A stretch of 54,446 bases of DNA. It comes from Candidatus Ruminimicrobiellum bubulum. GTDB taxonomy: Bacteria; Elusimicrobiota; Endomicrobiia; Endomicrobiales; Endomicrobiaceae. Shown here one piece after another: positions 3,269 to 48,183 of the stretch; the stretch's first letter is position 1, and the number at the start of each line of letters is the position of its first letter. Both the position numbers and the translations under genes were made by a program. The notes beneath the pieces were generated by a model, which searched no databases, was not told the origin of the DNA, and worked only from the letters and a program-made list of their open reading frames with translations. Location: the NCBI GenBank assembly GCA_017651625.1, contig JAGCCP010000032.1:1-54446 (forward strand), in the 5' to 3' direction.

Positions 3269-3270
3269 TT

Positions 3271-3768: not shown

Positions 3769-3840
3769 ATAAACCTCTTTTACCCGTATTTTAAATTCAA
3801 GAATAGATTTTATAACATTTATAACTAAAAATCAAAAGAA

Positions 3841-3990
3841 CTGATGATTTGAGGATTGGAAGATTAGAAGATTGGAAGTTCAAATGTAAAATTTGCTTCG
3901 CAAATTTTATTATTATTTATTTTTTCTTCCTATCTGATCCTCTATTCTTCTACTCTTCAAATCTTCCAAAAATCACTCCGTGATTTTTTG
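3841..3990. repeat. Palindrome plus octamer-repeat module (copy A)
   Basis: The spacer between leuD and the DNA glycosylase gene. The left arm is a run of AGATTRGA-like octamers, and the right arm (about 3927-3968) is an inverted run of TTCT-type octamers. Between them is a perfect 10-bp palindrome, TAAAATTTGC-TTC-GCAAATTTTA (3887-3909), followed by TTATTATTTAT. A second small palindrome, AAAATCAC-TCC-GTGATTTT, lies at the right end. The core recurs almost unchanged near 28957 and 46136. Confidence 0.75.
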
Positions 3991-4745: not shown

Positions 4746-4788
4746 AGGCTGGAAGATTAGAAGATTAGAAGATTAGAAGATTTGAAGA
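4746..4788. repeat. Octamer tandem repeat (half module)
   Basis: Directly after the glycosylase stop codon are four tandem copies of an AGATTAGA/AGATTTGA octamer. This is the same unit as the left arm of copy A, but here it has no palindromic core or right arm. Confidence 0.65.
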
Positions 4789-4794
4789 ATACAG

Positions 4795-18150: not shown

Positions 18151-18175
18151 TGTTCCCCCAAAAAAAATCCTACGG

Positions 18176-18316
18176 ATTTTTTAGTTTATAGCTTATAGAT
18201 TATAGCTTATGGTTTATTGTAAAAATTCACTTCGTGAATTTTTGTCGTTTATCAGAAATTTTTGTACAGCAAAAATTTACACTGAACTTTCAGCTCTAAG
18301 CTCTAAGCTTTAAGCT
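18176..18316. repeat. Palindrome plus heptamer-repeat module (copy H)
   Basis: The spacer between purB and the phosphorylase gene. The left arm has TTATAGC/TTATAGA heptamers (about 18185-18216). The right arm (about 18291-18316) has AGCTCTA/AGCTTTA heptamers, the inverted relative of the left unit. Between them are a perfect 10-bp palindrome AAAAATTCAC-TTC-GTGAATTTTT (18221-18243) and a second, AAATTTTTG-TACAG-CAAAAATTT (18256-18278). The first palindrome recurs at 23800. Confidence 0.7.
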
Positions 18317-18319
18317 GTT

Positions 18320-23742: not shown

Positions 23743-23834
23743 TTTTTGCTTTGCAAAAATTAGCTTATAGCTAAAAGCTGAAAATTTAAAGTTTGTTGTA
23801 AAAATTCACATAGTGAATTTTTTGATATTTAATT
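23740..23834. repeat. Double-palindrome module (copy J)
   Basis: The thiH/thiE spacer. AATTTTTGC-TTT-GCAAAAATT (23741-23761) overlaps the thiH stop codon. TTAGCTTATAGCTAA-type sequence follows. Then comes AAAAATTCAC-ATA-GTGAATTTTT (23800-23822), which has the same arms as the palindrome at 18221 and is likewise preceded by TTGT. Confidence 0.65.
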
Positions 23835-26357: not shown

Positions 26358-26440
26358 ATAAAAATTGCTTTGCAATTTTTGAAGAACAGAAGTTTGCAGG
26401 ATTGGATGATTGGAAGTAAATATATAAAATTTGCATTTAG
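26358..26440. repeat. Palindrome plus octamer-repeat module, degenerate (copy E)
   Basis: AAAAATTGC-TTT-GCAATTTTT (26360-26380) is followed by GATTGGAT/GATTGGAA octamers and a decayed AAAATTTGC...GCAATTTT core. The last part overlaps the final codons and stop of bioB. Confidence 0.55.
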
Positions 26441-27393
26441 CAATTTTCCAAGCCTAATCGTTTAATCGTCTTAAAATCTTCATCTATTGAAGTACCGGAT
26501 GTTGTAAGCATATCACCGGTAATTGTGGCATTTGCTCCGGAAGAAAACATTGATACACCTTTATCTTTGAACAAAAGTCTTCCGCCGGCAAGACGAATAA
26601 ATGCATCGGGTAAAATAAATCTTGCTATTGCAACTGTTCTGTTAATTTCTTCTTGCAACAAAACTTTGTTATTTTCAAAAGGTGTGCCGGGTATAGGATT
26701 TAAAACATTTATCGGAACGGACTTTATACCGAGTTCATAAATATCAAAAAACATATCTATTCTGTCTTCAAATGTTTCCCCTAATCCGAAAATTCCGCCG
26801 CTGCAAATTTCAAGTCCGGCTTTCTTTGCAAGATTTATTGTATTTATTTTATCATCATAGGTATGTGTAGAACATATATTGGGGAAAAATCTTCTTGATG
26901 TTTCCAAGTTGCAATGATATCTTGTAACACCCGCCTGTTTTAATTTTACAAGCTGTTCATAAGACAAAAGTCCCATGGAAGCACATAACAAAATATCACA
27001 TTTGTTTTTTATATCTTTATAAGTTTGGCAAACGGAATCTATTTCAGTATCGGAAAGTTTTTTACCCGATGTAACAATGGAAAATCTTTTAACCTTTTTA
27101 TCTGCATTATGTTTTGCTTCTTTAAATATATTTTGGCTGTCAAGTAAAGGATACTCTTTTATGCTTGTTTTATAATGTGAAGATTGTGCGCAAAATTTGC
27201 AGTTTTCACTGCATTTACCGCTCTTACCGCTGACTATTGAACACATATCAAATTTGTTACCGCAAAACTTTTGTTTTATTTTTTCGGCACATAAAGAAAT
27301 CTCTTGTAAGTTTGTACTTACAAGAGATAAAGCTTCCTGTTTTGTTATATGATAATTTTCATTTAGAATCTTATTCGTTAACTGTTCAAGCAT
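26437..27393 (-). CDS. bioB: Biotin synthase
   Basis: Radical-SAM enzyme inserting sulfur into dethiobiotin. The 318 residues are normal. The [4Fe-4S] ligands are Cys61, Cys65 and Cys68 (GKCSENCKFCAQSSHY). The [2Fe-2S] site residues are represented by CASMG, HCNLETS (conserved Cys after YHCN) and the Arg of FIRLAGGR. It sits 17 bases after a barrel-protein gene. No other bio genes are present, so it may act on imported dethiobiotin or with a distant operon. The stop codon lies within a repeat module. Confidence 0.96.
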   Translation of the reverse strand: MLEQLTNKILNENYHITKQEALSLVSTNLQEISLCAEKIKQKFCGNKFDMCSIVSGKSGKCSENCKFCAQSSHYKTSIKEYPLLDSQNIFKEAKHNADKKVKRFSIVTSGKKLSDTEIDSVCQTYKDIKNKCDILLCASMGLLSYEQLVKLKQAGVTRYHCNLETSRRFFPNICSTHTYDDKINTINLAKKAGLEICSGGIFGLGETFEDRIDMFFDIYELGIKSVPINVLNPIPGTPFENNKVLLQEEINRTVAIARFILPDAFIRLAGGRLLFKDKGVSMFSSGANATITGDMLTTSGTSIDEDFKTIKRLGLENC

Positions 27394-28910: not shown

Positions 28911-29043
28911 TTGGATGATTGGAAGATTGGATGATTGGAAGATTGGATGTTAAATTGTAAAATTTGCTTTGCAAATCTTGTTATTATTTAATATTTCCAC
29001 TTTACTTCTAATCTTCTATTCTTCTAATCTTCTATTCTTCTAA
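28911..29043. repeat. Palindrome plus octamer-repeat module (copy B)
   Basis: The pyrF/pyrE spacer. The left arm alternates GATTGGAT and GATTGGAA. The core TGTAAAATTTGC-TTT-GCAAAT-C-TTG is followed by TTATTATTTA (28957-28990). The right arm alternates TTCTAATC and TTCTATTC up to the pyrF stop codon. The arms are inverted relatives, so the whole module can fold into one long hairpin. Confidence 0.75.
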
Positions 29044-32220: not shown

Positions 32221-32249
32221 TTTTTCCCCGCAATTACTAATTTATCGTT

Positions 32250-44427: not shown

Positions 44428-44462
44428 AAAAAGCGGGAAGAAAATTTTCTTCCCGCTTTTCC
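44428..44462 (-). terminator. Rho-independent terminator after ilvC
   Basis: AAAAGCGGGAAGAAAA (44429-44444) and TTTTCTTCCCGCTTTT (44445-44460) are perfectly complementary. On the minus strand the stem runs into TTTTTTATTTTG. It resembles the GGGAAGAA stem at 4801. Confidence 0.8.
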
Positions 44463-44467
44463 GCTTT

Positions 44468-44508
44468 GCTTCCAATCTTCTATTCTTCTAATCTTCAAAT
44501 CTTCCAAC

Positions 44509-46089: not shown

Positions 46090-46221
46090 TTTGGAAGATT
46101 GGATGATTGGAGGATTGGATGATTGGAAGCTGAATTGTAAAATTTGCAAAGCAAATTTTGTTATTATTTAGTTTTCCTCTTTTCATCCATTCTTCTAATC
46201 TTCTATTCTTCAAATCTTCTG
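46090..46221. repeat. Palindrome plus octamer-repeat module (copy C)
   Basis: The ilvB/ilvN spacer. The left arm has GATTGGAT/GATTGGAG/GATTGGAA octamers. The core TTGTAAAATTTGC-AAA-GCAAATTTTG is followed by TTATTATTTA (46136-46170). The right arm has inverted TTCTAATC/TTCTATTC octamers. The right edge runs into the last codons and TGA of ilvB. Confidence 0.75.
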
Positions 46222-47922: not shown

Positions 47923-47975
47923 ACAAAAAAACTTTCATCTCTGCCGTTATACAAAATAACTTAAAGAGACGAAAG
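47923..47975 (-). terminator. Attenuator terminator of the ilvB T-box
   Basis: An 11-pair stem with one G-U pair, followed by eight T on the minus strand. It competes with the antiterminator that includes the T-box sequence at 48003-48017. Confidence 0.8.
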
Positions 47976-48183
47976 CACTAAATTGTTAAAGTATAAAAAT
48001 ACTTCCGCGGTACCACTCTTTTTTATTCTGCTTCATTGCAGAATACACTTATTCTCTTTTACGGGAGAATCCGTCTGTTTCTACTTTCGTTTTATAAACG
48101 ATTTCTTACAGCTGCTCCGCGGTGAATTCAATATTATAAATATCTTATAAAATATCTACTAATCCGCATCTTTGCATTTAATA
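47923..48183 (-). promoter_or_regulatory. T-box leader of the ilvBNC operon
   Basis: On the minus strand the leader contains the T-box sequence AGTGGTACCGCGG (complement at 48003-48017), upstream stem-loops such as TATTCTGC/GCAGAATA, and a GATGCGGATTAGTAG segment like the 5' side of stem I. A terminator follows, CTTTCGTCTCT with AGAGATGAAAG (47932-47975), ending in eight T just before the ilvB ribosome site. Uncharged tRNA should pair with the T-box and prevent termination. From the gene context the tRNA is Ile, Leu or Val; I could not fix the specifier codon with confidence. Confidence 0.85.

Follow-up and report, generated by a model that had tools for sequence, protein, structure and literature searches.

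Three intergenic spacers share one repeat family

What kind of element occupies three intergenic spacers in a 54,446-nt stretch of DNA (the window) from a rumen Endomicrobiaceae genome (Ruminimicrobiellum-like, Elusimicrobiota), and how did it come to be there? The initial annotation had proposed that the leuD/ogg, pyrE/pyrF and ilvN/ilvB spacers share an octamer array, an interrupted palindromic core and an inverted octamer array, and had placed them in a REP/BIME- or MITE-like family. Our analysis located all three copies (A, B and C) with this layout and identified them as members of a single ~130-bp repeat family, named F1 (Table 1). This family is real, genome-wide and polymorphic, and it is MITE-like, not REP/RAYT. 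The Pfam identities of the neighbouring genes (Aconitase_C/leuD-type and Ogg at copy A, OMPdecase (pyrF) and phosphoribosyltransferase (pyrE-type) at copy B, and ALS small and large subunits at copy C) agree with the earlier view that the flanks are unrelated, which rules out an origin of the copies through gene duplication. Copy A has a profile score of 107.9 bits on the minus strand vs 51.9 bits on the plus strand; in copy C the ilvB stop codon lies within the first octamers of the element, and no intrinsic terminator was found in copy B.

The source genome (G000) comprises 1.88 Mb in 58 contigs and is rated 100% complete. With up to three mismatches, the core TGTAAAATTTGCNNNGCAAATTTT matches six times in the window vs 0.05 expected from shuffles, and 62 times in the whole 1.88-Mb genome vs once for the reversed pattern used as a control, so that the count lies far above chance; 24 of these 62 matches share one orientation and differ from the core by 0-1 mismatch. 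A profile search of 732 kb of G000, a sample of stretches picked around known F1 copies, identified 35 distinct full-length places, 27 of them scoring at least 95 bits, and we place the occupancy of F1 at ~25-30 genomic places. The copies are old, with a median pairwise identity of 82% and a maximum of 93%. F1 has no coding capacity, many copies and filled/empty polymorphism, as is general among MITEs.

Read in the gene sense, F1 consists of (GAAGAATAGAAGATTA)n, a conserved core that contains a 9-bp hairpin, and (TTCCAATC)n. The sense core reads AGAGGAAAA-TTAAATAATAAC-AAAATTTGC-AAA-GCAAATTTT-ACAATTTAAC, the 3' arm is built of (TTCCAATC/ATCCAATC)n, and the ends are inverted (TTTGGAAGA...TCTTCCAAA). 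When 27 copies are aligned end to end, the octamers are phase-locked and all copies share an asymmetric 50-nt core. A small A/T-rich hairpin (e.g. AAAAATTGCNNNGCAATTTTT) adjoins the 5' side in about half of the 35 places, and in several places such a hairpin stands on the 3' side too. Solo 5' arms also occur directly after stop codons, two of them within the window. Three minor observations concern the parts of the element: the core loop of copy C (46139-46159) is TTT in the sense direction vs AAA in most copies, as if flipped; in all families, arrays are often connected with one another or with genes through a linker AACGAC/AACGGC, which is GTCGTT/GCCGTT at the opposite side; and an array resembling the F1 5' arm lies within a 667-aa open reading frame (G000:C33:18336-18423, L167).

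Table 1. F1 copies and related features in the window
Feature	Position	Strand	Remark
F1 copy A	3839..3969	-	between divergent genes: leuD-type (-), ogg-type (+)
F1 copy B	28911..29043	-	flanked by pyrF (the upstream gene of the transcript) and pyrE; 116.8 bits
F1 copy C	46091..46221	-	between ilvB (upstream) and ilvN; 122.0 bits
Core hairpin, copy A	3887..3909		9-bp helix
Core hairpin, copy B	28958..28980		one mismatch
Core hairpin, copy C	46139..46159		loop inverted
5' (sense) arm, copy B	29005..29043	-	octamers GAAGATTA/GAAGAATA; begins at the pyrF stop codon
3' (sense) arm, copy B	28911..28949	-	octamers TTCCAATC/ATCCAATC; ends at the pyrE Shine-Dalgarno
Small A/T-rich hairpin AAAAATCAC-TCC-GTGATTTTT	3968..3988		adjoins copy A
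Solo 5' arm	4749..4794	+	directly after ogg stop codon, then terminator-like hairpin
Solo 5' arm	44458..44507	-	directly after stop codon, then terminator-like hairpin
F1 remnant (degenerate; core plus 3' arm)	26379..26447	-	partial match
F1-free site in G000, full F1 in G010	32221..32249		ortholog comparison

Position and orientation relative to genes

Co-directional genes flank 25 of the 29 high-scoring F1 places, and F1 is oriented in the gene direction in every one of them (25:0, p=6e-8), the genes being longest-ORF calls from a simple script. In each of these 25 places the 5' end of F1 falls between -27 and +21 nt relative to the stop codon of the upstream gene. The 3' ends are found from 10 to 462 nt before the next start codon, and more than 60 nt are left on the start side in eight of the 25. 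The tight placement of the 5' ends at the stop codon, together with the variable 3' ends, ties F1 to the stop codon. In 11 of the 25 places F1 begins no later than the end of the upstream gene, so that the stop codon is there overlapped or supplied by the element. In relatives, F1 follows the genes by 12:0, a count that takes in at least one copy orthologous to a G000 copy and one weak 36-bit match from another genus.

It is important to note that in all co-directional canonical copies the gene direction is also the leading strand, as judged from GC skew, so that transcription and replication are inseparable for F1. The divergent copy at C35:79319 is opposed to the local skew, and two minority-strand heptamer spacers (F2-type) follow the gene direction, not replication. 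The rule also holds for period-7/8 arrays in general, which at leading-strand junctions have more G than C near stop codons (G>C in 47, C>G in 1) and more C than G near start codons (C>G in 27, G>C in 2); arrays with a period of 6 or 9-12 were absent from our first 454-kb sample.

Folding of the element

The initial annotation had suggested that each copy can fold into one ~130-base hairpin. This is possible for single molecules, but it is not conserved: in the RNAalifold consensus of 27 copies the 9-bp core hairpin is the sole helix kept, with three compensatory cells and two pairs changed on both sides. For the arms, each 5' arm was paired once with the 3' arm of its own copy and then with those of other copies, the copies being treated as independent. 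Own-arm pairs proved weaker than swapped ones both in sense RNA (-26.4 vs -28.4 kcal/mol, p=0.00015) and by Watson-Crick score in DNA (p=0.00025), and the antisense comparison gave p=0.025. The arms therefore do not co-evolve, and two explanations are rejected, namely that compensatory change maintains a structure in the arms and that template switching homogenises them; a conserved 130-nt hairpin is likewise ruled out. The weaker pairing of own arms fits a scenario in which copies are lost when their palindrome is too perfect, and such purging of perfect palindromes may be what keeps the arms imperfect. The mean fold is weaker in the sense strand (-30 kcal/mol) than in the antisense strand (-40.5 kcal/mol). 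Rfam covariance models gave no match above the curated threshold in the window. The T-box leader upstream of ilvB (47962-48181, minus strand, E=1e-19) scores 87.4 vs an Rfam gathering score of 93.

Filled, empty and swapped sites in relatives

Empty sites, which the initial annotation had proposed to look for in close relatives, exist for the B and C spacers. Site B measures 139 nt in G000 vs 1 nt in G003, G002 and G010, and a different array family stands at the same junction in G007; site C measures 133 nt in G000 vs 2 nt in G010 and G002, with other arrays in G003 and G007. At site A, G003 has the same copy (130 of 131 positions identical, next to a leuD that is 92% and an ogg that is about 88% identical), G007 has a different family, and G010 has the small hairpin only. 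The reverse case is seen at window positions 32221-32249, where G010 carries F1 and the spacer is 29 nt long in G000 and G002. Outside the window, C54:189740 is 142 nt in G000 vs a gene overlap (-1 nt) in G003, G007 and G010, and C43:22414 is 153 nt in G000 vs 5-6 nt in G010 and G002. At C54:42788, F1 is present in G000 and in G010, where two REP-like palindromes are nested inside it, and G003 keeps the same flanking hairpins around arms and a core that differ. Where relatives carry other families at the same sites, these have the same layout with different arms. Since related species are F1-free at these positions or carry another repeat there, F1 moves or is swapped. Neither a chance-level count nor a lack of empty sites, the two outcomes that the initial annotation had named as grounds for giving up the family, was thus encountered.

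At site B and at C54:189740, 13-17 nt of the empty site, Shine-Dalgarno included, are present on both flanks. Elsewhere there is little or no target-site duplication, with about 0-6 nt at C54:57232, and across the sites compared the constant-length duplication used as a criterion for MITEs was not found, its length being variable or the duplication absent. Other inserts were seen in passing. The G003 ortholog of window positions 3269-3270 has a 168-nt unrelated insert with an SD-like sequence on both flanks, unlike three other species, in which this gene pair is 2 nt apart. REP-like palindromes (ATTCTGAACTTGATTCAGAAT and TCATTGCGGACT..CCGCAAT) are nested in the F1 core or replace it at L055, L056 and L050:298-448 (G010, G002 and G008).

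Transposase searches and probable origin of F1

No Y1_Tnp domain (PF01797, E<=0.01) was identified in G000, G002, G003, G007 or G010, the controls being positive. This domain is absent from nine of the 11 genomes of the genus, the remaining two giving one strong match (G008) and one weak match (G006), so that the TnpA-REP (RAYT, Y1 HUH) transposase suggested earlier is missing from G000 and from most relatives. DDE_Tnp_1 was likewise not found in G000. Among the transposase families searched (Y1_Tnp and DDE_Tnp_1) no autonomous partner sharing the F1 ends was found, and the close partial F1 matches included no 5'-arm/3'-arm pair that recognisably enclosed a transposase, as an autonomous parent would. 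From the initial proposal, the MITE-like part is retained on account of the dispersed copies and orthologous empty sites, and the REP/BIME-RAYT part is not supported. Against a RAYT/REP element speak the absence of Y1_Tnp, the ~130-bp unit and ends that are not GTAG-tagged palindromes.

We consider it probable, at roughly 60%, that F1 is a ~130-bp intergenic insertion element of a MITE-like, non-autonomous kind, with a fold-back anatomy and a location after stop codons in the gene sense. Its inverted arms, made up of phase-locked octamers, enclose a short palindromic core; its copies would insert, or survive, at the 3' ends of genes in the orientation of transcription, often beside small A/T-rich hairpins. 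The array would commonly provide the upstream gene with a new stop codon, and the inserted copy would then travel within the mRNA of the operon, tolerated as a spacer. Its mobility may be provided in trans by an enzyme or through recombination with the DNA of relatives. Against this reading count the lack of a transposase linked to F1, the inconsistent target-site duplication, the age of the copies, an orientation stricter than is typical of MITEs, and the confounding of transcription with replication direction.

Selection for a functional RNA element after the stop codon, acting in processing, differential stability or translational coupling, could also have kept the sense orientation. The 25:0 ratio and the stop-codon position would follow from it, and so would the compensatory changes in the core hairpin and a copy A that differs less from its G003 counterpart than leuD and ogg do; we nevertheless judge it unlikely, because orthologous operons are F1-free or carry unrelated arrays, the host genes have no function in common, Rfam gives no match, and the arms lack covariation in an RNA whose sense strand folds the more weakly. 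Slightly more doubtful still is an origin with no mobile element at all, through local slippage and palindrome-driven template switching, the arrays then passing between relatives through transformation or homologous recombination. It would explain why arms differ octamer by octamer, why array periods are 7 and 8 only, why hybrids occur at C54:189740 and in G003 at C54:42788, and why flanking hairpins are kept while the inside is swapped; however, 27 copies agree in a single asymmetric 50-nt core and in the phase of their arms, which local growth cannot produce, and template switching predicts own arms that are more complementary, the opposite of what was found.

The absence of Y1_Tnp from five genomes that carry F1 or sister families (G000, G002, G003, G007 and G010) also makes it improbable that a Y1 HUH transposase moves F1 on single-stranded DNA, as an element of REP/BIME type or of IS200/IS605 descent. 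This mechanism would account for the hairpins, an orientation fixed relative to replication and the lack of a constant target duplication; it agrees with the leading-strand orientation of all co-directional canonical copies, with the frequent proximity of small hairpins and with the strong Y1_Tnp match in G008, but the two minority-strand F2-type spacers follow genes and not replication, and the divergent copy at C35:79319 runs against the local skew. A more speculative idea, to which we likewise give little credence, is that Endomicrobiaceae possess interchangeable post-stop-codon cassettes, in which several families of inverted period-7/8 arrays with a shared layout would take each other's place at the same gene junctions, both arms at once and always in the gene sense, via an undescribed transcription- or replication-coupled process and not a conventional transposase.

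Comparison with known elements

Inverted arms made of short tandem repeats are known from the Drosophila fold-back (FB) transposons, which are eukaryotic and kilobase-sized; F1 has such arms in common with them, a likeness of form only. By analogy, the nearest described elements would be YPAL/RU-2 and ERIC. YPAL/RU-2 of Yersinia is 168 bp long (De Gregorio 2006, via PMC2229807), with variable target duplications of 3-26 bp and no known transposase (PMC2229807). YPAL/RU-2 and F1 are both long imperfect intergenic palindromes with filled and empty sites, a target beside dyad symmetry and variable target duplications, and YPAL is reported with upstream genes. The likeness is one of form only; F1 differs from YPAL in being ~130 bp long and A/T-rich, in its tandem-octamer arms and in its strict orientation and stop-codon position. 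ERIC/IRU/RU-1 is a 127-bp enterobacterial element whose orientation matters for the upstream mRNA (PMC2229807). Compared by description, it resembles F1 in size, palindromic nature and location in transcribed spacers; unlike F1, which is found in Endomicrobiaceae, it has TA termini, no tandem-array arms and an enterobacterial range.

REPs are 20-40 bp long, lie downstream of genes and sometimes provide the stop codon, the GTAG types being linked to RAYT (PMC3733652). GTAG/CGTC REPs and REPINs thus share with F1 short palindromes downstream of genes and an occasionally supplied stop codon, whereas F1 is a ~130-bp unit with octamer arms, not a 20-40 nt GTAG/CGTC palindrome, and has no RAYT. RUP and Correia/NEMIS are non-autonomous elements of 100-160 bp with defined TIRs with TA and TSD (PMC2229807), so they are similar to F1 in length and lack of autonomy, but their TIRs with TA and TSD were not seen in F1. 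Regarding the IS200/IS605-derived PATE, the orientation of F1 fits replication but is confounded with transcription, and the Y1 gene is absent. A strict orientation like that of F1 is not typical of MITEs, and the combination of strict sense, landing at stop codons and site-for-site replacement of one family by another is unlike the usual descriptions of MITEs, REPs and ERIC.

Range of F1 and sister families

F1 was found in most members of the genus, the counts being at-least values, and once, as a weak match, in a sister genus (G013); at E<=1e-8 there was no F1 in the other family members sampled, among the candidates listed. G005 and G009 likewise gave no F1 match among the candidates listed. 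A wider pattern matches database entries for Candidatus Ruminimicrobiellum ovillum UBA7019 and for a MAG of a rumen Elusimicrobium. The one publication consulted that names the genus has no mention of such repeats. F1-type repeats explain much of the spacer variation in rumen Elusimicrobiota. The natural series of empty, family 1 and family 5 states at identical operon junctions offers a means of testing the effects of inserts on operon expression. The layout of array, core, inverse array and Shine-Dalgarno recurs with other sequences in G019, probably the cultivated relative Endomicrobium proavitum, which thus seems to share it. In the window itself, heptamer families with an array-hairpin-inverse array organisation (AGCTTAAAGCTG ... 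CTATAAGCTATAAACT) occupy positions 18151-18319 and 23743-23834, the latter copy lying on the minority strand and still following the gene direction.
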